From: Owenia fusiformis
Taxonomy: Eukaryota; Annelida; Polychaeta; Sabellida; Oweniidae
DNA length: 64,000 nucleotides
NCBI GenBank assembly: GCA_903813345.2
Contig: CAIIXF020000009.1
Coordinates: 7,248,030 to 7,312,029 of the forward strand
Direction: 5' to 3'
Positions 3,401 to 39,400 of the stretch are shown here, one piece after another. The notes beneath the pieces were generated by a model. The model saw only the letters and a list, made by a program, of their open reading frames with translations. It had not been told where the DNA came from and ran no database searches. The first letter of the stretch is position 1. Each line of letters begins with the position of its first letter. The translations under genes were made by a program, and so were the position numbers.

Positions 3401-6400
3401 GACATTCAAAACAAGTATAGTGAAACATGTGTACAGGAAACGGCTCTTGCCAGAGTGGGTCTCTTAATATGTTAGTCAATGGAAAACTATTTTGATATTT
3501 TGAAAACTATTCCTTGTAGGTGTTCGTTAAAGAAAGGTGGTTTCTCAGATAGAGTATTTACTGTTATCCCATGGTTAAAAAGATTTAGATCGAATATCAG
3601 GTGAAGATATATTTGATATGCGGATCAAGATCATATTTTAGGAAAAAATATCCAGACCATAGAATATCACTTTTGAAACCGATGGTTTCAAAAGTGATAC
3701 TCCATGGTTTAGATTTTTTCAAAATTATTCTTTAATATTTTTTTCAAATGTATTTTTAATAAAAATTTTCAAAAACCTTTTTTTCAATAAAAAATAATTT
3801 TAAAATTTTTTTCAATTTTTTTTCGCTGGGTTAAGATTTCCCATGGGATAAATGGACAATTCTATGAATTTTTAAAAATTGTAATTGTATCCACTCATGG
3901 ATATAAATGATATTTTTTCAAAACCATAGGATATTCCTTTATTTATCATCCCCAAAATATTGAATAAGCTTCATGTATGTAAAAAAAGCATCACTTACAA
4001 TAGAGGTGTCCTATATGAAGAGGCAAATTTGTCAGCATCAGTACTAATAGGGTTTTTACTGCTACTGTAGTACACGTAAATGATTCCTTCATTCCAGGAA
4101 AATCCTGAAAACCATTGATAAACCCAGATTTAGATAAATTAAACATGACCTTATCAAAACAAAGGATAAGTCAGGGAATGAGTGGGAATATCACTTTAGA
4201 AAATATTGAAAATTGTAATGTCTAATTGAATTACACATTAAATTTCAAAATTAAACCTCAACATCTCATCTTCCTTCTGAGAGCCCAAAAATATAAAGTA
4301 TCAGGATAAATGAAGAATATTGGCATCAAAGACTATGCATACCAATATGCCAGAATTGAAAAATATTTCAGAAGATGCTTAACTTTAGAATTGTGTAAAT
4401 ACTATGGTATAAATACTGTGTTTTAAATATTATGGTATAAATACTGTGTTTTAAATACTATGGTATAAATACTGTGTTTTGAATACTATGGTGTAAATAC
4501 TGTGTTTTAAATATTATGGTATAAATACTGTGTTTTAAATACTATGGTATAAAAACTGTGTTTTGAATACTATCATATAAATACTGTGACTGTGCTTGTC
4601 ATTTTGAGTGTACTTAAATATTTGTTGAAATTATCCTAGAATTATTATTTAACATAAATTCTTAATTTAATGATTTAATCATTTTTTGATTATCGAGAGG
4701 CTTCTTACAGACTACAATGATTATCATGACAACATTATTATTATGTAAGAATATATATGACCAACATTTTTCCAGTTGCAATTGTCAAACCTGCCCTCTT
4801 TGTCTGGATCCTCTTACAAGTGGTAACAATTATGCAAGTGGTAACAATTATGCAAGTGGTAACAATAATGCAGGTGGTAACAAATAAACTAACCAACATT
4901 TTTCCATTTGCAATTGTCAAACCTGCCCTCTTTGTCTGGATCCTCTTCCCATGGTATTGTCTTTGTTTCTGAACCAAATGTAAGATGGATAGCGGCATCA
5001 TCCATTCTCACCAATTCTTCCCTCTCAACACCATTACGTGTGCTAGAAACATACATATATGAAATACAAAGATCAGCCATCCATGACATAATATAAACCT
5101 GTAGCATTCAGGGTCAAGGCAGTATAACTGATGAACTGTTAAATACCAGGCCCGTAGCCAAAATTTTCCAAGGGGGGTTCACTTTCCAAAAAATTCTAGG
5201 GGGAGGGGGGTTCACTTTGGCAAATTTGGTCAAAAATCACTCAAAAAATAGTCAAGAAAGAAATTTTGGCCTGGGGGGAGTTCGCCCGAGCCCCCCAAAC
5301 CCCCCTGGCTACGGGCCTGAATACTATGAGCACAATAATGGAATTTAAAGTCACGGAGAGTGAAGACTATAAGAATTAACAATATGTCGCCACTTCTGAT
5401 AGTGTCGTAAAAAACTGGAACCAGAGTCAAAATTTTCAACATTTCAGCGATGACCAGGGAAAATCTATTCTAGTAATGTGACATTTAACTAAAACTGGGC
5501 ATGCTATAATACAAATCGTCTTAAGTGTAAACGTTTGCATGATAAGACAAAGAGCATTCTCAATTGAGAATATCAATCAAACAATATTTATTGTCTGAGC
5601 AAATAAGATTTGAATCAAATCTGGTATTATGTCACATGGCAGCCATTTTAACTGATATGCCATATTGAACTCCATTTAAAGCAGAGATCTTATGGGCAAT
5701 GATAAGTCTGTAAAATCTGAACAAAATGAGTATTCTTATTTGAATTAACGCCCAAACAGATGAATAACTACATCCTAGCTTGAACATCTTACAATGGGTA
5801 CAATAAAAACAAGTAAACTTACTCCAGTCCATACAGGGTTAGAAAAGTTCCTTTTGGATTGACATCAATAAATCTAACCCAGAGCATGAGAGTGAAACTA
5901 GTAGTGTTGAAGCTAAATGGGTAGGCCTGTTTTGCCAGAGAAGTTCGGTCATTGGAGTAAAAATTCAAGTCAAAATCACGGTCAATATCTGGAAATAAAG
6001 TGCAAATGATCTCAATATTATAAAAGACAAATATTTAAAATATGATGTAATTGTTAAATTGTCACTGATCAAGAAATAATGTATTTGTTGCAAGTGGTAA
6101 CAATAATACAAGTGGTAACAATAATGTACAATACAGTAAAGCCTGTCTCATCTGAATGCCATTGAGATTTAGTCAGAAATGACCTACATTTCAAAGTCTC
6201 TTAGTGTTGTGAATCAATGAGAAAATTAGAACTGGGAAAAAGTGTTCACTTTGAGAGGTGTTCGGATTAGAGAGGTGTTTAGATATATAAGTTTTACGGT
6301 AATTACACGATTAAATAACTTAATATCATACTTGTAGCTCAAATGGCCAATAATCAATTATTCAAGCCTGAGAGATACATTCAACATCATGCCCAAAGCA

Positions 6401-9400
6401 AGTTTTTACCCATAACAGGTTCACTGATGAAAGGATTCCATGGGGCATTCACATTTGACAACATTGGCTGAAATGATGAAAAACTGCATGAATTTAATTG
6501 AATTGTTGGCCATTTTTTGCTCAAACCCCAAAACCCCCTGACAACAGGCCTGAAAATAAAAGTTTACCTTTGTCGCAGTTTGGTCCAATCTTCCCAGGAG
6601 GGCACATGCAAAAACATTCTCCAACCCCATCTACAGGAGTTGCTCCACCAGTACAGGGAAAGCTACTGCAATCAGCTACATTATTTTCACATGTGTCCCC
6701 TGTATAGCCTTGAATAAGGAAAACATTATATCATGTATTTATATATAATGTACATGGATTTCTTTTTACCAACAATATCCACAAAAATTGGAGATCATAA
6801 CAAAATGTTACCATTTTTGGTGGTGATATAATAAAAATGATATTCAATTCACTCAATGAATGGGCATATACACTGTATAAATAACTTTATTTAATTAACA
6901 TATTCCTTACTAAAACACATTTAAAATTGCTTTCCAAATCATTTATTGTTAAATATCTGCAATTTGGTAATAAAATAATACACAGAAGCCGGAACAGATC
7001 AAATCCTCTCATCTTTTTTACCTGCATAATTTTCAGTATTTTTTTCATGAAATTTTCACAGCAAACACTTACAAGGATGATATTGCCTTGTTCCCCCACT
7101 TACCTTGCTTGCAGTGACACCTATAGCCATAAGGCAGAAAGATTGTCTCCACAGTGCCCCCATTCTTACACGGATTGCTCTCTTCGTAGTCTTTCAGGAA
7201 ATGACAGAATTCTTTGTCACTGTACTCTACAGAAAAAATATCATTTGAAATACAAGTCTCTGTTATTCTTCAAATAGAGGGGCTTGATGTTTAAAAGCTA
7301 AAACCTTGGTGTTGATTTTTTAGAGGCACTGGTAATGTGATGTTGGTAGTCCTTGATATTTTTGGTGTTATCTAATATCCCAGATGCGAGTAGAAATAAT
7401 CTTGATTTAAGTCATTAAAAATTCACAATTCAGTCAAACTGGCGTCATATTTGGAATCTACATATAAAATTACATCTAAAAATGTGGTTTTGAAAGGAGT
7501 TTATCAACTCTGAAAATTTAATTTTCTTTGAAAATGTGACTTCTAGGTCGGGGAGATTCCCCATAGACCCAATGCTGTAAAACTACAAAAAATGAAATAT
7601 CTTTTCTTGTGTTGGGCAGATAATATCTCTTTTCCTGGACATATTTTAATTTGTAACTATCACATACATAAGGGTAATTTGAAAACTGAACCACTAAAAC
7701 TGATGCATAGTCAAGTTTAATGGAATTTTGTAATACCCTGCCATGTTATTTCCCCCGAATCAGCCACCTGGTGGTGAAACTGGTAACTACCTACTCGCAT
7801 CTGAGTAATTCATGTTAATAATCTTTATCTTTGTCTGCTGAAATTCTAATGTAAAAGTGTTGCTTTGATAATTTATTGGTAAATTGATTTGTTAATTTAT
7901 CCAAGTAAAAGAAGTTTGTGTAAAGTGTTAAAAAAACGTTATGGACACCCTGGATACGTATATACATTATGCATGTATGTGTGTACCTTCAGGACATGTG
8001 CACTCCACATTGGCACCAGAGTCGCTACAGTTCTTTGCTTTGTCCGAGCATGGTGATGTGTCCATACAAATGGAGGCTGTCTCATTACATGTTGCTTCAT
8101 ATGTGCCAGGCAAACACCTAAAGAAGGCCACAAAAAATTATACAATGTAATAAGGGATCTTACTTATCTGTCATGAGGCCAACATTTTCCTCTTACATTC
8201 ACGTTGGGAAAGGGTTAAAGCCAAGTTAAAAGCCGATTACTGTTTACTGATTTTCACCTGGTATTGAAAAATAGCATTGCAATTAATTGGTGCAAAATGT
8301 TGACCACTTGTCCTAGAATTCTTGCAGTAAAGGAAAAACTTAAGATCTCATAAAGGGGATCATTTTAGAAAGGTTCATGAATTAAGGCAACAATAACTTG
8401 AGGTAATAATGTACAACAAACTTACTTGCAGAAGAAGTTCTGGAATACATTGTAACAAGAGCCATCATTCTTACATGTGTCGAGTTCGCAGTAATCTGTA
8501 ATGGTGTCACAGACTTTACCCTCCCAGCCTTGAGTGCAGTTACATGTGAAGTCATTGATTTCCTGCTGGCAAGAACCACCATGGAGACAGGGAGAGCTAG
8601 CACACTCATCAATATCAATCTGCGAAAATATACAATATATGGAGAATATACAATATATGGGAATATACAATATGTGGGAATGTACAATATGTGAATAATA
8701 ATAATCATATGGAGAATATACAATATATGGCAATATACAATATGTGGGAATGTACAATATGTGAATAATAAGCAATATGTGGGAATATACAATATGTGGA
8801 GAATATACAATATGGGGGTATTACACAATATGTGGCAAATGCATGTATACAATGTGGGAATATACAATATTTGAATGATATACAACATGTGGGAATATAC
8901 AATCTGGAGGTATTACACAATACGTGGCAAATATATATTTGGGAAACATTGGAATATACAATATTTGTTGTGTATAATTCACAATATGAGTGGGTCATAT
9001 ACATAATCTATGGGGATATGGGTAATGAACAATGTAGCCTGGAGGCATTAATAAACTTACAGTGCAGTTTTCCCCAGTGTAGCCTGGTTTACAGAAGCAC
9101 TCGCAAGTGTCATTGTTCTTGGTCTGTGTCCCAGTATCATCACAATTACTACAGGTTTTTACATTGTTTTCACAATCCTTACCTGTAAAGATAATAATCA
9201 ATTATAAAATGTAGAAAAATATTATAAAAACCTTGAAACTAGACAGGTTGAGGGGCATTTATTCCATATCTGTCAGAAGGTCTTTTATTTTTTATTAATG
9301 GCCAAAATGTGAACACCCGCCAAACTGAACACTTTTGGCCAGGCCAGTCCGAGTGGTCTTCCGATTAGACAGGTTTTACTGTAGCACCAAACTTACCAGA

Positions 9401-12400
9401 ATATCCGGATACACATTCACAAATATAACCATTCACTGCATCAACACACATCCCACCGTTTTGACATGTGACCTCCTCACAGTCGTCAATGTTATTCTGG
9501 CACCTTGATCCAGTGAACCCTGCGGGGCATGTGCCACATCTGAACCCCTCAAGCTCCTCGTCACAGGAAACACCCTCCATGCAAGGGTTTGAGGCACAGT
9601 AGCTCTTGTCTGTGCAATCTCCAAATGCAAACTCTGGAACAGAAAGTAAAAATTGTATTAACTTAATGCATGACAGTGGATGATTGTGGTAATATGCATG
9701 ATTCTGTACTATGCACGATGACCTCCACGAACATATTGGCAAGAGAATTCATAATACCGAAACTTGAAAGAGTATATAATATAATATGAAGTAAATTATT
9801 CACACAGCCAATCTGCAACAGTACCATACAGTACTGTTTTGACAATGGTACTGTACAGTACTGTGAAATATGGCACCATACTGTACTGTGAACTAAAACA
9901 GTACCAAACAGTACTGTGAACACTGTACGGCACTATACTCAAACGGTACCGTATGGTACCATACTCTTAATGTACCGTACGGTATCGTGATTTTATAATT
10001 CGGATTGGGGGTGTTCTCTTCATTTGAATCTAATGCAGCAATAATAAACTATAGTGAACTTGAGGAAAAAACCTTTCCAGCCATTTTGAATTTGTTCAAG
10101 GTCGATGATACACAAATATATGAAAAAGAAGTTTTAGTATTTATGATTCACTTTTAAATATGTTTTATTCAGTATTTTGCAAGATATTGTTTCAAAAAAA
10201 ATTAAATTTAAATAGTGCTTGTCATTAACAATGACTGAAATAATACTGTAAATGTTTATTAAACACGGTTTAACTTGTGTCCAAGATCTTACCTTCTACA
10301 CCAAGTTGCTCTGAACCTGATGAATAAAGGTCACTGAGTAGCGAAGAATTTGTACCATCACCTAGAATATTCACAATAAAATGTGTACAATGGTATGTGT
10401 GCAATAGAATGTGTACAACGGAATGTGTAAAATGAATAAATGGAATATATACAAATGAAACATTTTACAATGAAATGTGAAAATGAATATTTATAATATA
10501 AAAGACACATATTTCTACGACTCACCATAGAAACCGGCACTACAAACACAAAGATGTTCACGTGAGTTGTAATGGCTGACACATTCGCCTGTGCCACCAC
10601 ATTCATCAGCTGCACATTGGTTGATGAGGTACTCACAGTTGCTGCCGTATGTCCAACTGGGACATTCACACTTGTAGCCATGGAGTATGTTACTACAATT
10701 CCCACCATAATAGCATGGTTCCTGGGCACAGGCATCTACAATTTGAGTTACAATTTAGAGTTTGGTGCTTATAACCCTTGGCTTAATCTTCTATGGTTGC
10801 CGCCAGTATCCATTTACTTGTTCATTCTTGTAAGGATACCCAGGCCCTCCACTTCCATGAAATATATATATTCAAAGGCAAAATTCATTAATGCATTACA
10901 TACCAGATACGGCCTGTTTGTGTGAACAGTACATATGTAGTACAGAGTAAACATTGGACTGATACGTCAATTTCATTCAAGATAAAATTTGTACTCTGGG
11001 GAGGTCTTCAAAAACAGATCCGTTTTCAACAAAATGGAGCAGCTTCAGACATATGATTTTTTATTTTCCCATGATTTCATGAGATATGGGCCTAGGTAGA
11101 ATCTTCACAACCTATTTAGCACAAACATGTGTCTGTATCATATGGTTAAAGAAATTCTAACATTTGCCTAGATTTTCTGAAACATTTAATACTGACACAT
11201 GTTTGTGGCAAAATTTTTGTGAAGTTTCTACCCACTGCTTATTCTGGTCAAGTCCAAATTCATTTTATGTCTATGTACTATTATATGTCTATCTAAAATA
11301 TCTGATACTATTTAACCTGGCATTGCCAATGTCTCCTGATTTTAAAAATACTGGCTTTTGTATCACAAAGTCAAATTTTGTTGAGAAATCAGACATTTTG
11401 TGTTCATTAGACAGGTCACTGTATGGGACATGGGTAGCTTCTTATTAAGTAAACCCAGGTATGTGGAACACCTTTGGTACATCTAAAAATGTTTTACATT
11501 GGAGGTGATCAACTTATTAAAGTCCATTTAATATTAAGTTATTTGGTCATTGGACTCTGAAAAGTATTCAATTTAAAGAGGTATTCTGCATACAGAGGTG
11601 TTACTTTTTTTCTTTATTCAACAGACAATTTCTAACATACAGTTCATTTTACATACAATTTTTTCTAACATACAGTTCATTTTACATACAATTTTTTCTA
11701 ACCTACAGTTCATTTTACATACAATTTTTTCTAACCTACAGTTCATTTTACATACACTTTTTTTTAACATACAGTTCACTTTCATGTAACATGTCTAGGT
11801 TTTGTAAATATGGTAATCTGGAGTCATACCTATGAAGCTAGAGCAATCTTTTCCTGTGTACCCCAATTCACATTCACAGTATACACGTATGTTATCATCT
11901 CCTGGATTGATGCATGTTCCATTCCCACAGTCCTTATCGACACACTTGTCATTCGCTGTCTCATTACACCTAGAATGGTTATACTATGATGAAAACACAA
12001 ATTATGCCTACATCGGCAATTACAATTCTTTTAATAAAGCCGCTTTTGACCTGATTGGTGTCGGTTTGAAAAAATGCCAAATTCATCTCAAAAAACTTTA
12101 AAAAATAAGAAATGATATGTCAAGAGCACTTTTATAACTAGTGATTACGTACGGCTGTCTATACCAATAATGTACAAAAAACGAAATTTTTTGCATTAAT
12201 CCTCAGAAGATTGTCGTAGAAATGGGAAGTTTTAATTTATACCTTACACCAGTCCAACCATTTGTACAGAAGCAATTGTAGCCCTCGCCATTTTCACCAG
12301 GGAGGGCATCCTGACACATTCCACCATTGAGGCACTTTTCACCAGCATTGGGCCCCTCATTGCAGCCATTTATGTCATTCTCACATCGATCCCCTGATGC

Positions 12401-15400
12401 TGGAAAACAAAAATTACATGACCTAAACTTGAGTTACCATAGCAACTATGATTTTGACCAATCACAGAACAGCAATTCATTTTTGTCTCTCAATGTATTA
12501 ACGCTAATACACTTACACCATAGCTGTGATAGTCTCAATGAGTGACATTGATGGTGGAAAAGACAACTACATGAGTTACTATAACAACTTACTTTTAACC
12601 AATCGCAGAACAGCATTTTTGAGTCTCAATGTTTAAACTTACACTCCATCTTCTGTGATAGTCTCAATGACAAATATTGAAAATTTTACAAATTGAGACC
12701 ATTATTCATTGAACAAAATATAAAACAGAAAAATATATAGAGAGATAACATAAGAGAAATGTTTCTTCGGGTTTTGATAAAAGAAAACATTAAATATTAT
12801 CACAATACTCATAATATTACCCTTTAGGATTTTTCATTTTATTTTCTACTTATACAAATATTTTGCTTCAGGTAACTTACATTACACTGGGTTACCATAG
12901 CAACATAAAATGTGTTAATTTATTTTTGGATCACCCTCTATGCAGATTATGTATTGGATGTAACATCGGAGATCAAATTCAAAAATCATATTTTCAATTA
13001 TGTGGTAAAATCCACAACCAAAGGAGCAAAGATATCTAATTTACAATATGATCATATTATTTGAGAGTAAGACATTGCAATATCCTTGATCAATTTCTGC
13101 TTTTCAATCTGTCCACTGCAAGATGAGATGCAATGGATATCACCAGAATGGCTATGGGGCCTATAGGTATACATGTCAATGCACTATACATGTATATAAA
13201 TCAGTTTAACTTACTGCCATCTACACATTCACATGTATAGTTCTGGTTCTGGCTGTCATTCTTGTAACATTTACCATTGTAATAACATTTATATGAGTTA
13301 AACTTACTGCTGTCTACACATTCACATGTGTAGTTCTGGGTGTCATTCTTGTAACAGATACAATTGTAATAACATTTATATGAGTTAAACTTACTGCCGT
13401 CTACACATTCACATGTGTAGTTCTGGGTGTCATTCTTGTAACAGATACCATTGTAATAACATTTATATGAGTTTAACTTACTGCCGTCTACACATTCACA
13501 TGTGTAGTTCTGGGTGTCATTCTTGTAACAGATACCATTGTAATAACATTTATATGAGTTTAACTTACTGCCGTCTACACATTCACATGTGTAGTTCTGG
13601 GTGTCATTATTGTAACAGATACCATTGTAATAACATTTATATGAGTTTAACTTACTGCCGTCTACACATTCACATGTGTAGTTCTGGGTGTCATTCTTGT
13701 AACAGATACCATTGTAATAACATTTATATGAGTTTAACTTACTGCCGTCTACACATTCACATGTGTAGTTCTGGGTGTCATTCTTGTAACTACTGATACC
13801 ATTGTAATAACATTTATATGAGTTTAACTTACTGCCGTCTACACATTCACATGTGTAGTTCTGGGTGTCATTCTTGTAACAGATACCTATGTAATAACAT
13901 TTATATGAGTTTAACTTACTGCCGTCTAGTTCTGGGTGCCATTCTTGTAACAGAAACCATTGTAATAACATCTATATGAGTTTAACTTACTGCCCTCTAC
14001 ACATCCACATGTGTAGTTCTGGGTGTCATTCTTGTAACAGATACCATTGTAATAACATGGGGATGAATCACATGGGTTTCTTTCAATTTCACATGTAGGC
14101 CCACTGTAACCTAAAACATATACAATAAAAAACATGTGCATTTAAACATACAAGGTACATGTGTATATAATATGGGAATGAATCAAAACTAAAAGGTAAT
14201 GTCAAATTGGAAAATTGTCAATTGAAATAGATTTGATGCCAAATAACGCAGATGCTAGTAGGTAGTTACCAGATTGACCACCAGGTGGCTCGTTTGGGTC
14301 AGATAGCATGGCGAGTATAGTAGAAAGTTCCCTTTAAATTAAATTACATCTATTTGCGTGGTTCAATTTTCATATAACCCTTATGTATCTAATAGTTATG
14401 CAAATTAAAATATGTCCAGTAAAAGAAAATGTTATCTGTCCAATACAAGAAAAGATATTTCACTTTTTGTAATTTTGTAACATGGGGTCTATGGGGAATC
14501 AACCCGAACAAGAAGTCACATTTTCAAAAAAAATTAAATTTTCAAAGTTGATAGACAATTTTCGAAACCATATTTCTAGATGTACTTTTACATGCAGATT
14601 TCAAATATGACAGCGCTTTGACTGAAGTTTGAATATTTAATGAAGTAAATCAAGATTATTTCTACTCGCATCTAGTCTATTAATGGCGAACACCATCATT
14701 TAGATAGGTCCTGCTTGTATGTTTGCATCCAAAATGGATATTTAAATACATGTAGTTATCAACCGACAAATGTTCACTGTTGCTGTTGGTAGGTGTTCAC
14801 TTGACCAGTTATTAAACAAGGCTATATAAGAGGAGGGAATAATCAATATAATTTGTATTTTCTACCAATAATGACCCATGACACTCTAGCGATAGCATTT
14901 TTGTTTTGCTGTAGTGTTATATAAACTTCTTTTAGACTTATTTTAGACTGAGTGTCATCTGAATGGTTCATCCTTTTATTGTTAAATTCTAACCGTTTTG
15001 TAATTCTCTATAATTTTTTGATGATCCTTTAAATCGTGGAATCCTTGACACATTTGAGTCAGTTTAATGACTTTATTGAATTAATTAAATGACATGATAG
15101 AGTCAATTAAGGGCGATCATTTAATTCTTATCCAATCTGTTTTTTAAATTGATGAGGATGAGCAAAATATTAAGTTGGGACTTAGCAGATAGAGGTAATA
15201 ATAGTTAACTAGATTATCTTCAAAGCAACCAATGCTAGACAAATATCCTGTCTAAAAAAAACAAAGCTTATTAAGAATCATAATTAGTCACACCTGTTTC
15301 AACAGAAGAGATCAAGATCTCAAACTGACCTTTTTATTATTTTTTGGCAGGTAATATAAACATAAACTGCCTAACTCTGATAAGGCAGTTGCAGAAAATC

Positions 15401-18400
15401 TGAAAGAAGTCTTATATCTGATTCAATGTTCACTAGAGACAGGACAATTTGATTTTGCCAAGATTTGTTGTTCACTGTTCACAGTAGGTAGGTGTTCATT
15501 ACAGGATTGTACTTTAACATGGGAGTCAATGGGAGAAAAAGGTTTTGCCAAAAAACATTCACTGTTGAAAAATTATGAACCATCAATTTCTTCCAGACAT
15601 ATGCTCATCCTGAAAAGACTAATTGTATTGCATATTTAAAGAGCATAACATAGTTACTATATTTACCTGATTTACATGAACACATGAGTGTGTTATTCTG
15701 TGCAATAGGTGTACCTCCATTTTGGCAGTAACTTGGGTTCAAAATTATGTCTGAAATGTATGTTAAATCATTACAAAATAAAGCTATATGAATGATTTAA
15801 AACAATACATGTGTAATCATACTAAAAGAAATTAAGTAAAATGTTTATTCTAGTCTCATGCTGTACATGTAAGCTACTGTAAAATATCATGCAAACATGT
15901 AGAATACATGAGGGATTTGTACAGGGAAGTTTTGGATATGGGGTTTATCCAGAGGGAGATATGCATATCTACCTGAGGGACTGAACGGACAGAAGGTAGT
16001 TTTGCACTATATCTCCTGAGGGATAAACCCCATATCCAAACCGCCCATACATAATAGCTTTATCCTATACCCACTAGAGTTTCTAAGAAAATCCAAATAT
16101 TTCAAATCTTTGTTTCAATTTTTCAAATTTTTGTTTCCAAATTATAGGATAAAAAATATATACATGTACCATGATGATAGGGTAACCAACCATATACATA
16201 TATAGACCTTTTCAATCTCATTTCAATCTTGAAAGTATGTTCCCTGATTGATTTTTGGGAATTAACTCACCTGTGCAGTTATTGACTGATATAGAACCAC
16301 CACTTAATGTCTCTGTATCACCATCACAACGTTTACATCGCGTTTGATTTTTTTCATCCTGGTAAAAATTCTTTGGGCATTGTGTACAGGGTTTGTAGCC
16401 ACTGGGGGAGTAGGTGCCCTCATCACAGAATCCTAGAATAATACTTCATGTGAGGCTTCTCTTTAAGGAGACAATGGGATGATATTCATAATAGGATGTA
16501 GGCCCGTAGTAAGGATTTGCCAAGGGGGGTTCACTTTTGACAATTTTTGTTAAAAAATGGCAAAATCACTTAAAAAGTGCTCAGAATGGTGAAAAACTGA
16601 CGATTTTGAAAGAATTTTTGGCCAGGGGGGGGGGGGTTCCCTGGCTACGGGCCTGGGATGCTATAAGGTACATGTGGCTACCATTGTGGTATCACATATT
16701 CTGTTATAAAAATCATTATGTAATACTTATTAAGGATGCAATATAGAGAACGTAATTGAACTGTTTGAATTATGTGAGAAAGCGATAACCCACATGTTTT
16801 GGCCTGATCTCACTCATTCAGCTTCCAAGTAAGAGTTCCTTGATTTTTTTAATTCTAAGGGAACATCATAATATAATAATAACTATGATTGACAGTAAAG
16901 GCCATTAACAGTTTTCAGTGAAAGTTTTTATTTTTATTAAAGATTAAAAAATAGTTATTAAAAACTCCTAAATCACAATGCAAATGTATATATATATATA
17001 TTTTTGAACAACACTTGTAGTTAGTATTTACTTCACAGTAAAATAACATTGAACTTTAAGAATGCGAAACTTGAATGAAGTTTCTGTTGATGTTGATGAA
17101 TTTTGTTAATGGCCCCCTGATGGAAAATATTACCAATGACTGGGTCATTATCTGTTCTGTTCTATTCTACCCTTCTTACCCATGCATTGAGATTCATCAG
17201 TCATTCCAGGCCTGTGTGTTGTAGTGTTGTCTGGACAGGCTTCACAATACGTTGCGTTGACCAGGTATGTGTCTATTGGACATTGTTGACATGGTGGCAG
17301 CCTGGTGGAGGACCACATGCCTTGTATGTTGCATGTTGCTGGAGATAAAATTTCAGTTATAACGTACCTATGATGATGTATGCGATGTATAGTGCAAAGT
17401 GTACACAAGACAGCGGGCCAATAGAAGTTTTGAAAAGCCCGCGCCCGCTAACTTTCTGATTGGTCAAGGCGCTGACGTCATAACCAATCAATCGAAGATA
17501 AAACTGCGTGAGCAATTTTTTTTAACTCTTTTCAATCATTTTCAAACCATTTGTTTGTCAATTCTATAAGAAAACGGTACTCTGACAAGTCTACACCACC
17601 ATAGGTATGTTATAAATTGTTTATGTCATTATCGTGGCACATATGCCCTCGGTTCTCAGAGATCAATGTCCCTCCCAAGGTCGGGCCATATATTACTGAG
17701 ACCTCGGGCATACAGTATATGCCACGATAGTTACATAACCTCTGAGTCTAGCGAAGCATTTGTATGGCAGTCAATTGGGAAACGTTAGCAGGATACATCT
17801 ACCGAAATACGATCATGTATAATTGATTTAAAAAGTATATTGATTGTACCCACATTAAACATAAATAAGATCAAGTACTTGTATGTAAACAGGTTAACAT
17901 GTATTAAAACTACAAATGAACTACATATAAATAGACAAAAATGTCACCACATGGTTGGAATTATATAAGTGTTAAATTTGTTAAAGACACTGAAGCTGGC
18001 ACTGACACTACTCAAAAAAAACAATGGCTACACCAATATTTCACCAATAAAAGGTAGTGACATAAAAGTACTGCGCCATAAATGTGGGGTTGATTTTCCA
18101 AATCACGGTACTATAGGTAAGGCATGGTATATGGTACAGTACAGCATGTATGGCACAGTGGGGCAAGGTACATGGTCAGGTCAGGTATGGTACAGTACAC
18201 TGTACAGCTCAGTACAGTACAGTATAGTATGTATGTACAGCATGTATGGTAAGGTTAGGTTATACTAGAGTACAATACAGTATGATACTGTAAGGTATGG
18301 TACAGTACAGTGCAGTACAATACAGTACACATACAGCACATTAGTAATATACTAACCTAAACATTCACTCTCTAGAGAGACACCTTCAGTTTCAGTCCAT

Positions 18401-24400: not shown

Positions 24401-27400
24401 GCTATATCTGCCCGCTGATGAAAATATAAGTTTTTACAAACCGGCTTTATGAACCTGTAACACGTCCAAGTATGGGATAAATATGCATATCTCCCTCTGG
24501 ATAAACCCATATCCAAAACCTTTTGTAATTAAGAAATATTGAATACTTACTGCACACCGTCTCACTGTCAGATACCTTTTCAAGAACATAATTTTTTTCA
24601 TCACCAAGACATTTGAATCCATGTGTATCAGTCATACTTCCAGTCAGTGTTTTTGTTTCATCTTTATCAACTTTCAAATTAGGACATCCTTCTATTCCAG
24701 TGACATTAGTAAAATATTTAGATGCCTCTGTTAAGATATTTTCAATGTCTTGCAGAAGAGCATCTATGAGATTGAAGCAACTTTCTGCATCTCCTATTGT
24801 TATGTCATCAGGCCCAATTCGTATGGCAACACTAGCATATAATGTCTCATTATCCTAAAATGAAAATTAAAAGGTGAAACATTTACAGTAGATTTAGCAT
24901 TCTAGCATTCCCAACAAAGTATTCATATTTAAATGAGGCCATAAAATAGTAGGATAATGTGACAGCCAGTAGTTGAATTCGGGAGTGCTAGCAATACCCA
25001 AGGTAAAGGATGAATGATTCATATGATATATGTTAAACTATACAATGTATTAAATATCATTTTAAAGATAAATCTTTCCCTAACAAAATGACACCATCAA
25101 ATTGAAAAGCCTTTGTTTTCCCGTGGAGTTAGAGACTAAAATTGACACCAGTATCAAATGGGTCAATTTATTTTTGATTTATCCGTCATGCATGTCTCTG
25201 AAGATGATACATTGCAGAGGGACTGAATTAATATCCATAAGTGTGTCGATGGTTTTAGGTTTGGTATGTTAATGAAGACGCATTTCACATATTTAGTCCC
25301 TCGCTTTTGTTACACTGACAATCGGCATTAATATTGCCAATATTACACTGACGAAGAGGTTTGCTTACACTGACGAATGGATAATATTATAGAGGAAGTT
25401 GATCTGTGGAATGGCATGAACATAAGACGTAGCCATACCCCCGGTAACATTTATAAAAATTGCCTCGATATTTTTATACATGTTCCCGGGCCTATGGAGG
25501 TAGCTTTCTATCAAATCTCGAAGATTTCTGGCATGTGCCCAGGGGGAGGTATGTGAAGCTGAAGCTGAGATATTGAATCAAATCCTTTCAATTATTCTTA
25601 TGTAATTATGATATGTGCATAACATTTAAACAAAACAGGCATCATATTCTCAATTAATAATAAATTGGAGTCCCAATTTACTCGTAGTATATAACATGCG
25701 GTTGATGTGATGAACACAAAAATATTTTTAACAAAGAACCAAAAGGTCAATATATTTTTATTCATCAGTCATGCCTGCCCCTGAAGATATTGCAGAGAGA
25801 CTGAATCAGTATCCATTCAAAATGACCACCTTCTACCAAAAGTGTCATTAGACAGTGTGCCATGCTTACAGTATTCACATACCGAATATGAACAAAATCG
25901 CTCCAATACTTTTCGAGTTACAGCAAAAATCGTAAAATAACAAGTAAAGGCCGCCATTTTTCAAGATGGCAGCCATGTGCTTCTTTAATATCTACATTTT
26001 TAGCTTTATTAATGTCCTCTATAATTTTTTTACATTTAAAACATATTGCTATTACAGTTTTACCTATTTCACCTAATTTTTTACCTATTGCACACGTACG
26101 TACGGACGGACGGACAGACGAGCGGATTTTGATAAATGAACTTTTGAATTAGTACCTTAATTCTTGTATTAAACATATATAATTTAAAAAAAAAAAGTCA
26201 TTTCTTATCAAATCTAACTCTTGTCAAATACTATTCTAAGAACCAACCTTTAATGTTAAATTGACTTCTGGAAAATCAACATCCCACAATATACCCCTCG
26301 CTACCTCACACATATAAGCAAGGTGACCTTCCACCGCTAATCCTGAAGCCCTGAGGAAATGTTCATTGAAGACAGTATGGTTCAAGCACGCCTCACTGAG
26401 GGTTGCTCCTATTGGTTCAGACCTATAGGCAATTGTGTAAGTATCAGCCACCATGGCGAGAGGTGGTGCTATAAGGGAAACAACAACATGTGAGGAAGAA
26501 ATTAGAAATGGTTGATAAATGCCACAAAATATTTTCGTTTCTCTTTGTGTTAAATTTACAAAATTGAGTGGTCTGTCATTTTGGTTTTACAAGGATAAAT
26601 AAATGACTAGCAACCAAATATATGCATATTATTGCTAAAAATGCACTCATTCCTCCAGTGGAGCATTTATAAAATGAATCAAAGTAAAACTGATACAATT
26701 ACTAGCTAAACATAGTAAATATAGATCACAGTAGTAGATTTGATTTTGTCACAATCCAATGAATGCTTACAGTAGTTTGATTTTGTCACAATCCAATGAA
26801 AGCCTACAGTAATTTGTTTTTGTTACAGTCCAATGAAAGCCTACAGTAATTTAATTTTTTCATAGTCCAATGAAAGCCTACATTAATTTGATTTTGTCAC
26901 AGTCCAATGAAAGTCTTAAGTAACTTGATTTTGTCACAGCCCAATGAAAGCCTACAGTAATTTAATTTTGTCACAGTCCAATCAAAGCCTACAGTAATTT
27001 GATTTTGTCACAATCCAATGAAAGCCTACAGTAATTTGTTTTTGTTACAGTCCAATGAAAGCCTACAGTAATTTAATTTTTTCACAGTCCAATGAAAGCC
27101 TACATTAATTTGATTTTGTCACAGTCCAATGAAAGTCTAAAGTAACTTGATTTTGTAACAGTCCAATGAAAGCCTACAGTAATTTAATTTTGTCACAGTC
27201 CAATCAAAGCCTACAGTAATTTGATTTTGTTGCAGTTCAATGAAATCCTACAGTAATTTAATTTTGGCACATTCCAATGAAAGCCTACAGTAATTTAATT
27301 TTGTCACAGTCCAATGAAAGCCTACAGTGATTTGATTTTGTCACAGTCCAATGAAAGCCTATAGTAATTTTTTGATTTTGTCACAGTCCAATGAAAGCCT

Positions 27401-30400
27401 ATAGTAATTTAATTTTGTCATAGTCCAATGAAAGCCTACATTTATTTGATTTTGTCACAGTCCCATGAAGGCCTATAGTAATTAAATTTTTTCACCGTCC
27501 AATGAAGCCTACATTAATTTGATTTTGTCACAGTCCAATGAAAGTCTAAAGTAACTTGATTTTGTCACAGTCCAATGAAAGCCTACAGTAATTTAATTTT
27601 GTCACAGTCCAATCAAAGCCTACAGTAATTTGATTTTGTTACAGTTCAATGAAATCCTACAGTAATTTAATTTTGGCACATTCCAATGAAAGCCTACAGT
27701 AATTTAATTTTGTCACAGTCCAATGAAAGCCTACAGTGATTTGATTTTGTCACAGTCCAATGAAAGCCTATAGTAATTTGATTTTGTCACAGTCCAATGA
27801 AAGCCTATAGTAATTTAATTTTGTCACAGTCCAATGAAAGCCTACATTTATTTGATTTTGTCACAGTCCCATTAAAGCCTATAGTAATTTAATTTTGTCA
27901 CAGTCAAATGAAAGCCTACATTTATTTGATTTTGTCACAGTCCAATGAAAGCCTACAGTAACTTGATTTTGTCACAGTCAAATGAAAGCCTACAGTAATT
28001 TAATTTTGTCACAGTCCAATCAAAGCCTACAGTAAATTGGTTTTGTCACAGTCCAATGAAAGCCTACAGTAATTTAATTTTGTCACAGTCCAATGAAAGC
28101 CTTCAGTAATTTGATTTTGTCACAGTCCAATGAAAGCCTACAGTAACTTGATTTTGTCACAGTCAAATGAAAAGCCTACAGTAATTTAATTTTGTCACAG
28201 TCCAATGAAAGCCTACAGTAATTTGGTTTTGTCACAGTCCAATGAAAGCCTACAGTAATTTAATTTTGTCACAGTCCAATAAAAGGCTTCAGTAATTTGA
28301 TTTTGTCACAGTCCAATGAAAGCCTACAGTAATTCCTCACCAACACAATCATGCATTTCAGTAATATTCCAATTTTCGCCCTTGCTGGAATCACACGTTA
28401 GAACCTTTTCTTTTTCATCATAAAACTGGAATCCCTTATCACAGAAGAAATAACATGTTGTTACTGTGCCTTCAACTGTACAATTCATCGTCCCATTTCT
28501 CGGATGTGGAAGGTCAGCAGTCACGCAATTTCCAGCTGAAAGTCAATGAATTCTGCGTAAAATTTCTAAATTGGTGGTATTTTCTCAAAATTTTATTAAT
28601 ACTCATATAAGTTAAAGTATACATTGAGTACCTAGCTTGAATCATATATGCAAATGTAAAATCATAACTTGTGAATTTAGGATTTAGATATTGTGAAGAG
28701 AAATGATGAGCTACAGATGTCACTTGATTAAAAGTTGAAACAAGTTGATGATACATTCTCCCCTGATGCTTATAAACTGGTGATTCATAGTACTCTCTGA
28801 GACACCAACAATATACTGTACAAGTACACTCGACATGTACATACCTTCCACTTTCACTTGTAATGTACAAGTACACTCGACATGTACATAGTACTACATA
28901 CCTTCCACTTTCACTTGAAATGTACAAGTACACTCGACATGTACATACCTTCCACTTTCACTTGTAATGTACAAGTACACTCGATATGTACATACCTTCC
29001 AGTTTCACTTAAAATGTACAAGTACACTCGGCATGTACATACCTTCCACTTTCACTTGAAATGTACAAGATGCTGTGTTGTTCCTCTCGTCAAATGCAGT
29101 AGCAGTTATGTTATATACATCACCAAGGTCATCGAGGCTCACTGGGAGCTTCTCAGGTTCAAACTCCACACGTCGCACATCTCCTTCTCCATCAGTCACG
29201 GTTACATTGTCTTTAGAGAATACAACATCCCTTGGCTCATCCGCATATACAGGTTCTGTATGAGGGTCTGGGCAGGTGATCTTAGGAGGGTTCTCCTCTG
29301 AAAACCAATACATGTACATTTTAAAAATCAATGAATGGTTATACATTATATCAGTTTACCCCTTCACTTAGCTTATATGGCAATTGAAGAACATGGCAAT
29401 ATTATCGATTCAATGAGAAATCATATGTTAATATAATTAATGTATATACGGTATAATTCAACTCACCAGACAGTATTAACTCCACTGTATAACTAATTTC
29501 ATTGGCTGCTTCATCAGAGAATGTAAACAGAAATGTTTCACTTATATTGAAGTAACCATCGAAAAGTGAGCTTTCATGGTATCCTGCTGGTTCCACCATG
29601 GAGCTGGTCACTTCGACATTGTCACTGGCATTTGGAGCATGGAAACCATACTCTTGGTATAGTTTTCTGTAAAGTATTCCCGATGGACACTCTACATCAA
29701 ATGTTGGTGCTTCCACATCTAAAATAACATGAAAGAAACTAGCTAGCTGTTCAATAATAACCATCATCGCTTGCACTGGTTTTAATGAAAGTATTTGTCA
29801 TTTCAGGAAATCATCTGATGGGGCTACTCCTTTTCCAAGGTTTTACCTATAGGTAGATATACTGACAATACACATTTACGTTATTTATTGTGCAGTGATC
29901 TCCCAAGGATTGTTTCTAAGGTGGGTGCAAAATTCTCATTTTCACAATTCAGACCAAAATTGGTCAAACTATGCCATTTTTCATTATTTTCTCAATTTCA
30001 AGTGGGTGCAAATGGATTTTCAGGTGGGTGCAAGCCTGGTTTTAAGATCTCGAATGGGTGCAGTGCCAACTTGCTTTAATGCGGGGGAGATGACTGACAT
30101 TGTCTCAATAACATGATATATCAAATACGCATGTTTAAAACTGAGTGAGTCCGAGGACAGACACTCCAAATCAAGATCCACCTTATTTTATGGTGCATGT
30201 GACATATGAATAAAAGATAAAAAGCCCTAATGTTAGGAGATGACGAAACACCCTCTACCTGTGAAAGAAATAACACAGTAAAATCTGGATATCTAAACAT
30301 CCCCCAATGGGACCACTTTTTTCTTGGTCCCAATTTTTTTTTATTTTCCCATCAATTCACGTTATTAAAACCTTGAAATTATAAAAACTAACACTGACAA

Positions 30401-33400: not shown

Positions 33401-36400
33401 GTAAAACTCAACCTCAAGTCAACTCAACCACGGTAAAACTCAACCTCAAGTCAACTCAACCCAAGCGAAACTCAACCTCAAGTCAACTCCAGTAAAAATC
33501 AACCTCAAGTCAACTCAACCCAAGTAAAACTCAACCTCAAGTCAATTCAACCCCAGTGAAACCCAACCTCAAGTCAACTCAACCCCAGTAAAACTCAACC
33601 TCAAGTCAACTTAACAAGAGTAAAACTCAACCTCAAGTCAACTCAACCCCAATAAAACTCAATCTCAAGTGAACTCAACCCCAGTAAAACTCAACCTCAA
33701 GTCAACTCAACCCCAGTAAAACTCAACCTCAAGTCAACTCAACCTCAGTAAAACTCAACCTCAAGTCAACTCAACCCCAGTAAAACTCAAAGGCTATAAC
33801 AGAAAATCAGTTAACTCACAGACACAAGAGCGGTTAAATCTGTAAGTATCATTAGCTCCATATCCATCCTCTCCAAGTGGTATGAAGAATTCCATGGTAC
33901 CATTGGCGGTGTATAGGGTGTAACCTACATTGCAAGAGCATTCATAGCCTCCATCTTTGTTAGAACAATTATGTTTACATGTGTGGCTTCCTTCGTCGCA
34001 TTCATTAATATCTGTAATACGGGAATACACGAGAAATGAAAAAGGTTAAACTACTGCTCCGAGAATAATATTATTTTTGTGTGTAATAGTGTTGCTTGAG
34101 TGAGATAATAATGCTAGAGGTCATCATAATAGAGACTACCATTGCATTTATAAAGTGCGATTTTTAATTTTGTTAATATTAAAGGCTGTAAAGACTTAAG
34201 TTTTAAGAGTGGATATTCCTTCTAAGGAAAACCACTGGTCTTTCGAACACTGCTTCAATATTGACTGTATATTGAATTTTTTTCCTTTACAAATGTTTAG
34301 ATCTTTAATTTATACCAGACTTGTAAATTTTTTTCAGGAGATGTTCATACCAGTGCAATTCACTCCACCAGCATCAAGCCTATAGCCATCCTGACATTCA
34401 CATGTAAAGCTACCATTGTTGTTCAGACATAGCTGGTCACAAGTGGTGTCCACCAAACACTCATTGATATCTTAAAATAAGAATTCATTGTAAATGTTCT
34501 ATAATATGTACTGTAGATACACTTAATACACTTTGCGATCAGAATTCAGGTATTTTGTTTTTGGATATTGTTGTCATGTATTTCGCCTTATTGGTGTGAC
34601 GTCATATAGAAATGATATCAGACATGATGGAGAGACGAAATGGCAGACACATGGCAGTTTTGAGCTAAAAATGTTATTGTTTCTTTTATGAAAATCATGG
34701 GTCTGATATTTACCAGGTATGCCGATTTGACTAGATCATGAGTATATCTTTATATGTGTGAAGTTTCGGTGAAATTCTTGCGAAACATGGATGCCTATAA
34801 GCGCCCCCCATTTTTGCGAAATCGGGGGGCGCTTAACCGCTATCTAAACCATGTCTGTAAGATCTTAGACTTGGCATGTGCCTAGAATGAATGTTGATCT
34901 AGTCAAATCAAACACTTTCATGAAAAATAAATCAATAAAGTACGAAAAACAGAAGATAATCTCTCAAAATCACAAAGCTATAGCAGTGTGGACTAATTGT
35001 GACGTCACTACAAGATAGAATTCATCCAGTGATCGCAAATCATCAATTTGGCTCCCATTTTAATTTGACAGATTGGCGGATTCAGAAAATCCGCCAAGTT
35101 AAAAATCCGTCAAATTTCAGTTTGGAACTTTTGTCCAATGCACTTCAGAAATTGAACTCCAATGGCCCCTTTTCCTATCAACGTGTCATCAATTCTACAT
35201 TATTCCAAAAGAAATACAGAAAATATCTTAGTAAACACCTGTCCTAATGACATAAACATCTACAAAATTTAAACTTTAGTCCTGAATCCACCAAATTAAA
35301 TAGCCACCTGAAGTAGTTGATATGCTATTTGTGATGACCTCACTATATCCATTGCTCTAGAATCATCATAATCAGATTACACAGAGATAAGCTGCTATTG
35401 CTGAAAAGTCATATACCTTGGCATTCTTCCTCTCCAATAAACTGTCCAGTTTCGCTACATGTCATAGAGAACGTTGTATTCTCTGAGGATCCACGTATCC
35501 CGTACCCACCATCACAAGTGACATCTATTGTCTCTTGGAATTCTCTAGTTATGTCGAAGCTTGTCTGGTTGCTGTTTTTAACCATTGGTGCACTGCATTT
35601 CAACTCTGAAATCAAATTACGACTTTTTTATTTTTTATTTATTTTTTAATCATTCAAACATGATATACAGTTAAAAATAAAAAATAAATAAAAAAAAATG
35701 AAAAAACGTTAACTAACATAACATGGAAAGGATAATCACATAAACTCCGAAACACAATTCTTATGTCTTCACTTGCGGACAATTTAGAAATAAAATGGCG
35801 GCTTATTTTTACATATTGAAAAATACATGTAGATATAAGCACATACTTATACAAGTTGGTACTGGGTGTGACCAATTTCCATTTTCCTGACACAACAGTT
35901 TAGGAGCGCCCTCTATTATGTATCCAGGGTCACAGGTGAAGTTGACGATAGTCCCAAAAACTGTTCCATTTCCTGACAATTCTGCATTCAGCGGAGCGGA
36001 AAGTCCATCGCATGATGCAGCTAGATATAAATAGTACAAATTTTCATATCATTATAACTTATTTTCATATAATTATTAGTTGATGTAAAATGTAAAATGT
36101 AAAAAGCGTAAACTGAAATAAAATAAATATTACAAAAAAAATTATGAATCAAATTCATATCATTATAAAGTATATGCATGTTCATTTCATTATAAATCAT
36201 ATTCATTCTGTAATATATATTGTTTTTCAATTCAGGTTTATAATTCAGGTTAACAGCATTACAATAACAGTATATATTCTGTGCGATTTAACAAGATAGT
36301 ACATAAGAGTGATTCAATATTTTGCAGATTATTTCTGCCATGAGCACCATCCGAAATACATCATAATATTGACTTGATATTTTCTAGTCATTTTATGCAG

Positions 36401-39400
36401 ATATTTTGGAGTGTATTATAGAATTTCAAAAGAACCTCCTAGAAAATTCACAAGAGTAAGTTATTGTTATATCATTAATCAATATACTCTGACTTTCTAG
36501 GTTAAATAAAATGATCATAAAAAATATATATATATATTTATATCATTAAAGGTGCAACAATCGACCAGTGTCAAAATATATCTAAGTTTGGATATTTCAT
36601 CAAGACTTACATATATTTTATATTTTTATTATCTACAAAGAAACCTGTGGATGGACTTTATCTCAGCTGATATTCCTCTTATCTTGAAACATGGTGAATC
36701 TTAAAAATCTATAAGTGGGACTCCCTTTATAGAAGCTTTGAACTGAATTTACACTTCTTAATTCTGAAATTGAGACTTTATCCATACATTTTAAGAACAT
36801 AGGTATGTCAAAGAAGATGTTAAGCCAAATATTGACCTGATTTTCTCTCTACAGTCCTTGTTGTCCCTTTAAATAACATGCATATTCATACCAATAGAAA
36901 TATAAGCATACATACCAGTTTTGATATATAAATTTTTAGATCACTGTTCAATCAACTATTTAAACATATACAGTGGTCTCCCCAGCATTAAAGCAAGTAG
37001 GTGCAGCACCCACCTGAGATTTTGAAAACAGCCTTGTACCCACCTAAAATTCCATTTGCACCCACAATTGAAAATAAGAAAAATCATGAAAAATAGGCAT
37101 ATTTTGACCAATTTAGGTCTAAATTGTGGAAATGAGAATTTTGCACCGACCTGAGACAAAAATCCTTGGGAGATCACTGTAATATATATTTTTTACAAGA
37201 AAACTTAACAAGGGTTTACGATGGATGATTCATAATAGTTCTTTATCCTTACGTTCACATGTCGGAGGTTCACCCCAGCCATCATCCCCACATGTTATTG
37301 TGGCGTTTCCAACGATTGTGTAACCCTGGTCACATGTATAGGTGACATTGTGACCATATGTCACACCTCCTGAACTCATGGCGCGAATGTTAGACGTGTT
37401 TAGTGGAACTTCACCGCAAAATTTTGCTACAACACAAGGTAATAATTGGTACAGAAGAAAAAAGTGGAACAACTAAAGCAAAATATCATGTTATGATATT
37501 TCCTGATTTTGAAGTGACATTATGATATATATCTACGTACGTTGACATTGGGGTGGCGTGTTCACATTCCACACTCCCCCGTTCAGACATTCCATTGTTA
37601 TTGTAGAGTTCTCTCGATACTCCTCCCCAGAGAATTCATAACCTGGGGGACAAGATACTTCAACAGTGGTCCCATAGTAAAGTGTGTAATTATCAGGATG
37701 AGGATTTGTCATATTATTGAACAATGGATCCTGGCAATCTGCAAATGAAAAAAAAAAATCTCATACCGATTAATGTTAAATAAAATTATTAAGAGATCTG
37801 GATGTTTCACATCGAACTGTGCCAAGGCCTTGCATTTAAGATACCTCTTATTAGATTGTAGTTTATCTTTATTCCTGTATTACAAAATGGAGACTGCATG
37901 TTCAGAATACATGAACTGTAATACAAACCTGACGAGAATGTAGCAGTAAACCCCTTGCCATTGTCAAATGCACTGGTGGACATTATGACAGATACACTGG
38001 AAGAAGCCTCAACACGGAAAGGAAGATGAGATAATGATCCAGATTGCTTATTTAGAACCACCTCCCCACTATTTCTATTTATCACCTAAATAAAAACAAA
38101 AATATCCTATTAAAGTATTTATGACCTCAATCTTGGAATGTTTTTTTTGATAATTTATAATATCTGTATTGAATACACTTGGAGACAATGCCAAGTCAAT
38201 GTGACAATACCAAGTCAATGTGACAATACCAAGTCAATGTGACAATGCCAAGTCAATGTGACACTACCAAGTCAATGTGACAACACCAAGTCAATGTGAC
38301 AATACCAAGTCAATGTGACAATGCAAACTTTATGTGACAAAATTATTTGCAACTTAATTGAACATGCTTATTTGCAAACTCACCATGGCATGGTCAATTG
38401 TAAATGTACTGTGACATGATCATTTGCAAAAATACTGTGACATAGTCATTCAAAAAATTACTGTGCCACGGTCATTCAAAAATTACTATGACATAAGTCA
38501 TTTGAAAACTTAATGTGACATGGTGAGTTGCAAACTTACTGTGACATGGTCATTCATAAAATTACTATGTCATAGTCATTTGGAGACTTAATTCACAAAA
38601 TTGTGACATAAGTCATTGCAAACTTACTGTGACATGTGACATAATTTATTTGCAAACTTACTGTGACATGGTCATTTGCTTTGAAGTCAAATTCCTTGAA
38701 GACCAAAGACACAGGCCTCCCTGTTGAACCAGTGAGATTCCAGTAACAGGTAACAAAGTTAGGGTAGTTCTGCCCTAGGCTGTACCCTGGCGTTTCTATT
38801 AACCCCTGTGTTACATTCACATCCACAGAGCACCCTGAAGTGAAGACATGTCATTTTAACTTTAATTGTATAATGATGGAGTGTTTTATCCAAAAAGAGT
38901 TCATTCCAAGGGTATGGTGCATGACTTTAGATATACAAGGGTTAAAAAATTGATTTATCAACCATACCAGTTGTTCTATTATTTCCCTCTTTGTATTACA
39001 AAAACAGATAAATATCACACTTTACAAATGACAAAATTCAAAATGGTAACGTGGTAATTTGAACCCAGGTTGCCTGAAATTAAATCAAATCTTGGCATTG
39101 GTTATTAGTCTCCTCTTTAAAAATTTCAAGCTGAATAAGCAGTTTTCCAGCACAAGACGATGACTTATACAGGGCCATTGTCCAATGGTTACATGGCAGC
39201 TTAATTACATTTATTCTTCATTTATTATATACCACTGTGCAGTTTTATATTACCTTGTACATATGTGAACTTGAAACCTTGGCGTAGAAAATTATAGGTC
39301 TCAGAATGGAAGTAAACAAATAGTTGATTGGTGGTTGATTGGATGAACTTAGGTTGTATATCTGTCCCCCTGTATGTCACAAGGACGTCATCTCCTACAC

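Follow-up and report, generated by a model that had tools for sequence, protein, structure and literature searches.

The window, by which we mean the whole stretch of 64,000 nt of Owenia fusiformis DNA that was analysed, carries on its minus strand a gene whose exons gave Pfam matches to HYR, CUB, EGF, Ephrin_rec_like, Sushi (1.1e-14) and LDL receptor class A (6e-12) domains, and which we take to encode a polydom/SVEP1-like protein. A gene model trained on the window comprised 32 minus-strand exons, after a doubtful one (4968-4923) had been dropped; an exon at 15750-15667 and a Sushi match at 35851-36012 of the window are absent from it. Exons taken as pentraxin and C-type lectin were without such a Pfam match. 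The GC content was 33-37% along the window (4-kb steps) and 36.7% at the other loci fetched from the genome.

Within this gene, an array of ten donor-bearing copies was confirmed on the minus strand at about 13200-14110. Tandem Repeats Finder placed it at 13203-13928, with a period of 87, 95% of matches and a score of 1294; rows of longer period over the same array extend to 14058. The string AG/TAAGTT (the slash marks the splice site here and below) occurs in 10 minus-strand copies across the array. The full repeat unit is made of about 68 nt of exon end and about 19 nt of intron start, that is, exon and intron sequence of one boundary. A DNA search of the one assembly gave a single place. 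The features of the locus are the following:

15667..15750, minus strand: EGF-like coding exon ahead of the array exon, with phase 1 at the donor; positioned by eye, absent from the automatic model
13991..14110, minus strand: array exon, EGF-like, phase 1-1, acceptor TTTTAG/GT; its last ~68 nt are unit 1, up to donor 1
13920..13990, minus strand: unit 2, 71 nt, with a 16-nt deletion relative to the other units and an in-frame TAG just before donor 2
13215..13919, minus strand: units 3-10, 87-93 nt each, with eight more identical donors, presumed intronic
13991, 13920, 13833, 13743, 13656, 13569, 13482, 13395, 13308 and 13215, minus strand: last exon-type bases at donors 1 to 10
12400..13990, minus strand: intron if donor 1 is used, 1591 nt, ending in CCAG before the exon at 12399
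12248..12399, minus strand: next coding exon in the model, which is in phase with donor 1 and brings the sixth Cys (TSGDRC); 3' end uncertain

The steps from donor to donor are, in order, 71, 87, 90, 87, 87, 87, 87, 87 and 93 nt. A previous sequence-only reading had described an exon end amplified together with its donor behind a single acceptor, and this description holds, with ten copies on the minus strand and the one acceptor ahead of them at 14110. The name "exon 32" given to the array exon is unconfirmed, since our model, which is partial and misses some exons, places it 22nd of the 32 predicted in the window. The array exon encodes the sixth cysteine of one EGF-like domain, followed by C1-C5 of the next. 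The phases agree at phase 1 for the acceptor at 14110 (TTTTAG/GT), the donor (GGC A/GT) and the next acceptor at 12399 (CCAG/CA).

Splice signals and reading frames of the units

The donor 9-mer GCAGTAAGT (GCA/GTAAGT) is the same in 10/10 units. With a matrix built from this gene it scores 3.38 bits, which falls within the range of the 32 model donors (0.86 to 8.56) and thus makes the array donors middling. As all ten are equal in this 9-mer, strength cannot single out donor 1; in classical work on duplicated donors, the upstream site was not always favoured. No credible acceptor was found in the array: 56 AGs were scored and the best reached only -4.6 bits, against 2.2 to 12.7 for the 32 model acceptors, so that the earlier description of a unit with a donor but no acceptor is correct. 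Splicing of donor 1 to the exon at 12399 would give a domain that covers positions 1-32 of 32 of the Pfam EGF model (E 0.0015), at 19.2 bits for a cut-off of 21.5. A longer joined peptide matched EGF at 1.5e-10, the best stretch being located in the next exon.

The frame that runs past donor 1 reaches a TAG in unit 2 after 62 nt. Thus, in this assembly, messages from donors 2-10 would all carry this stop, and the previous observation of a second unit shortened by 16 nt and closed by a stop is borne out. It was also right that units 3-10 are mutually in frame, as their minus-strand frame is open over 234 codons. However, a plus-strand frame over the same stretch is open over 135 codons, which makes the open frame weak evidence of coding; as the units are near-identical and both strands are open, its length means little.

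Compared with the consensus, the units show 15 distinct changes, 12 of them nonsynonymous and 3 synonymous, for an expected 84% of nonsynonymous changes (p 0.73, indels removed; a small sample). The substitutions among units therefore look neutral, and no coding constraint was found in them. A cysteine codon is lost in unit 4. Two insertions occur among units 3-10, one of 3 nt in unit 4 and one of 6 nt in unit 10; both keep the frame, which could hint at a past coding use of the units. A coding role of units 3-10 is not supported, in view of the neutral substitution pattern and of the open frame on the opposite strand. Units 5, 7 and 8 share one sequence; the most divergent are units 2, 9 and 10. 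Unit 1 departs from the consensus at 2 of 68 positions, which does not exceed the divergence of unit 3.

Boundary arrays in the window and across the genome

Two other exon ends of the same gene carry arrays, and a third may have been duplicated:

28817..29069, minus strand: second boundary array, formed by the end of the HYR exon 29297-29043 (E 1.2e-07) and its donor AAG/GTATGT; 47-bp unit, 5 donors
38351..38670, minus strand: third boundary array, formed by the end of the CUB exon 38834-38662 (E 5.2e-10) and its donor ACA/GTAAGT; degenerate units
4744..5007, minus strand: possible two-copy duplicate of the end of a candidate exon, 44 bp (...AATGTTG/GT), flanking an 18-bp minisatellite; strong donor in neither copy

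Local direct copies were found in the window at 3/33 donors (13991, 29043 and 38662) and 0/32 acceptors (p 0.24); among the sites entered by hand, none had copies at its exact position. Such copies occur at 15% of 7,788 intron positions and at 1% of 671 exon-interior positions of the window. The donors therefore do not exceed this intron background, and a tolerance of minisatellites that touch exon ends suffices to explain their copies. Other minisatellites lie in the same gene model. One of them, based on 17 bp (8611-8903), extends as far as the acceptor of an EGF-like exon (8619), whose upstream tract it makes up; another, with 43 copies of 37 bp (26733-28334), lies between exons.

Across the assembly (498 Mb, 525 contigs), the donor word AGGTAAGT was sought three times in succession at gaps of 35-65 nt. 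This gave 624 triplets from 19,109 single words, versus 314 from 33,902 for the reversed word, where triplets of one array overlap. By number of arrays, the same listed stretch held 9 for the donor word versus 7 for the reversed word, about 2.3 times as many per single word, and 9 versus 7 is too few to claim an excess. All nine donor-word arrays among the matches listed were fetched, and eight of them begin at the end of an open reading frame. Five of these exons gave Pfam matches above the cut-off: Muted (5.9e-15), NIF (4.3e-06), Neur_chan_LBD (2.4e-15), UDPG_MGDP_dh_N (1.5e-10) and MRPL52 (6.1e-07). A tetraspanin exon (L001) was weak in Pfam (0.058), and two of the eight donor-array exons were without a Pfam match. 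By eye, the acceptor side appears to be duplicated too, besides the donor array, at the tetraspanin-like locus L001 and at a UDP-glucose dehydrogenase-like one (L008). The ninth donor-word array, L005, is different: at L005/L043 (C1:51116462-51116989, minus strand) lie tandem 58-bp units, each made of a 52-nt look-alike of a mini-intron (GTAAGT, a TACTGAT-like branch, TCTCTCTCATAG) and six further bases, TCCTAG, and the flanks showed no recognisable exon.

A set of Sushi exons chosen without regard to repeats (55 matches in dense clusters, from 150 listed) offered 50 callable donors and 28 callable acceptors, with local copies at 17 and 4 of them, respectively. After 13 donor and 4 acceptor rows had been dropped by hand as whole-exon duplications, copies remained at 4/37 donors versus 0/24 acceptors (p 0.15). 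When the window and the Sushi set were pooled, with a paralogous pair counted once, the figures were 6/69 donors versus 0/56 acceptors (p 0.03), a bias that is only a hint, because acceptor arrays exist elsewhere in the genome. An amplification specific to donors is thus not established: copies at donors do not exceed the level of the introns, and acceptor arrays also occur.

Clear arrays stand at two Sushi donors, with six copies spaced by 112 bp at one and three copies spaced by 139 bp at the other; two related donors retain decayed versions with two copies. The six copies of exon end plus donor belong to the exon at C10:30674818-30674979; five of them are identical over 112 nt, suggesting a very recent amplification. 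Whole Sushi exons also seem to be tandemly duplicated, at spacings of about 283-354 bp at three loci (L013, L014 and L018) and of 1230 bp at another (L022).

The acceptor word TTTTCAGG gave 288 triplets from 55,592 single words, and its reversed form 60 from 23,493. Of the roughly 21 arrays listed, nine were retrieved, picked by eye and in some cases because the printed unit seemed to be coding. Four of the nine run into an apparent exon start, a proportion that cannot be taken as a rate. Two of the four exon starts matched a septin (3.5e-07) and a zinc finger (1.7e-13), one is presumably AlaRS-like (Pfam only 0.034) and one was too short for Pfam. Immediately behind the last exact word, the other five fetched arrays showed no recognisable exon. 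In 4/4 cases the last copy runs on into the exon, the extra copies lie upstream, and the last unit itself closes the frame.

The extra copies thus lie downstream of the exon at donors and upstream of it at acceptors, and they would all be intronic if the outermost splice sites are used. Read-through past donor 1 meets a stop ahead of donor 2 in 11/13 donor arrays; L001, the tetraspanin-like one, stays open past its donor 1 and keeps the frame. The distance from donor 1 to donor 2 is a multiple of 3 in 2/13 arrays, or in 4/13 by typical unit length, the EGF-exon array included, and these counts are about as chance would give. Closed frames and copies lying on the outer side of the exon are the anatomy that inert intronic copies should show.

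Interpretation of the EGF-exon array

Amphioxus has 19-20 chromosomes and a GC content of about 41%, values that would not fit the 12 chromosome-size contigs (31.9-62.2 Mb) and the window GC found here. Tandem duplications of exon/intron boundaries, many with AG/GT signals, are described in this animal as "mirages" in globin, Adh3, troponin C and PGBD5 genes (PMC3087553; PMC3902484). In the accessible text of these two reports, regular splicing is said to be undisturbed for the globin, Adh and TnC mirages, while for PGBD5 the same statement is the authors' inference (PMC3902484). The inner units of a globin mirage are homogenised and its edges are spared (PMC3087553). Like the amphioxus cases (BflGb6, BflGb9, Adh3, troponin C and PGBD5), the array of O. 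fusiformis is made of minisatellite-like units that span a boundary and keep the splice signals, the amphioxus ones being located at donors or acceptors. In contrast, the amphioxus arrays have a cephalochordate host and lie in other genes; also, BflGb6 has 6 and 3 units in two haplotypes, whereas the Owenia array has ten donors. Somatic change has been reported for amphioxus Adh. No report of mirages outside lancelets was among the matches listed, which covered few subscription papers and do not imply absence from print; in one ascidian paper the word occurs, but merely within the title of a reference on another subject.

The EGF-exon array is best read as a further case of this known type of boundary minisatellite, one of several in this genome. 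Very probably, donor 1 is the site in use, and units 2-10 are latent and are spliced out with the intron. Such an array would have been born by tandem duplication of the last ~68 nt of the EGF-like exon with the first ~19 nt of the intron, and slippage or unequal exchange would then have multiplied and homogenised the copies. Donor 1 (13991) would be joined to the acceptor at 12399 and donors 2-10 would stay latent; the units 2-10 would thus be removed with the intron and the EGF domain would be made normally. Donor 1 is probably preferred because it is transcribed first and closes the normal 120-nt exon. The position of the extra copies on the intron side depends on the use of donor 1, which we infer from phase and domain match. 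An inert intronic array appears likelier than a ladder of alternative donors, and the array is most likely spliced out whole.

The extra donors might serve instead as a regulatory decoy, binding U1 or seeing low use, with the resulting transcripts directed to nonsense-mediated decay and the amount of protein tuned in this way. Any use of donors 2-10 would place a stop upstream of further exons, as this reading has it, but the same closed-frame geometry is found at unrelated genes, and closed frames are partly expected by chance because the donor sequence gives TAA or TAG when read in one of the phases. We consider such a role quite improbable.

The previous reading had gone further: it took the array as a ladder of alternative 5' splice sites, in which repair of unit 2 in some alleles could give proteins with variable numbers of 29-residue Cys-rich inserts. 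In a working ladder of this kind, donors 2-10 would see occasional use, and alleles free of the unit-2 lesion would make inserts with four cysteines each. The structural part of the previous reading, namely the amplified exon end, the ten equal donors, the one acceptor and the stop in unit 2, agrees with the sequence; the working ladder is not supported. The ten donors are identical, but in this assembly the unit-2 stop would be present in every isoform from donors 2-10. Units 3-10 share one open frame, which their indels (3 and 6 nt) preserve, but their substitutions look neutral, a cysteine is missing from unit 4 and a frame of the opposite strand is likewise open, over 135 codons. Three consensus units match the EGF model PF00008 weakly (0.00058, 20.5 bits for a cut-off of 21.5), but the first Cys is absent from the unit, which is therefore not a whole EGF domain. 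The open, in-frame array of L001 indicates that not all arrays are closed, but 11/13 arrays of the same kind are closed to read-through. Repeats at boundaries of recent human paralogs can alter splicing, according to the accessible part of the report (PMC2812944), and these tandem repeats resemble our array in that they can add latent splice sites; however, in the human case repeat number varies between paralogs and transcripts support novel introns. A working ladder is possible, but it is without support in our sequence analysis, and we rate it as very unlikely. An assembly artefact, with the repeat over-expanded or collapsed, is extremely improbable: the identity of units 5, 7 and 8 would fit it, and unit number could for that reason be off by a few, but units 2, 3, 4, 6, 9 and 10 each have their own differences, the array is shorter than 1 kb and other loci carry arrays that resemble it.

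A more general hypothesis, which we hold to be unlikely, is that many genes of this lineage carry ladders of identical donors or acceptors silenced by an outermost-site rule, and that a few open in-frame ladders (alleles of the array without the unit-2 lesion, or L001) are sometimes read as variable-length inserts.

Duplications across boundaries have other outcomes elsewhere. In potato RdRp, a duplication across an intron/exon boundary copied the splicing signals, as it did here, but a new intron arose there, whereas the extra copies in Owenia bring donors alone, from which neither a new exon nor a new intron is predicted (PMC4974935, in the text accessible to us). Tandem repeats inside the first intron are described for earthworm metallothionein genes (PMC12783039), and in Caenorhabditis elegans intronic minisatellites have been linked to alternative splicing (PMC4039745); in the accessible portions of these two reports, boundary arrays are not among the repeats described.

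The presence of mirage-type arrays at several conserved genes outside lancelets suggests that they may originate wherever intronic minisatellites abound. Each array also sets up to ten identical splice sites in competition, as a natural experiment, and long-read RNA of one animal could reveal how the spliceosome chooses among equal sites, a question of long standing. In gene annotation, arrays of this kind are prone to be called as false exons.
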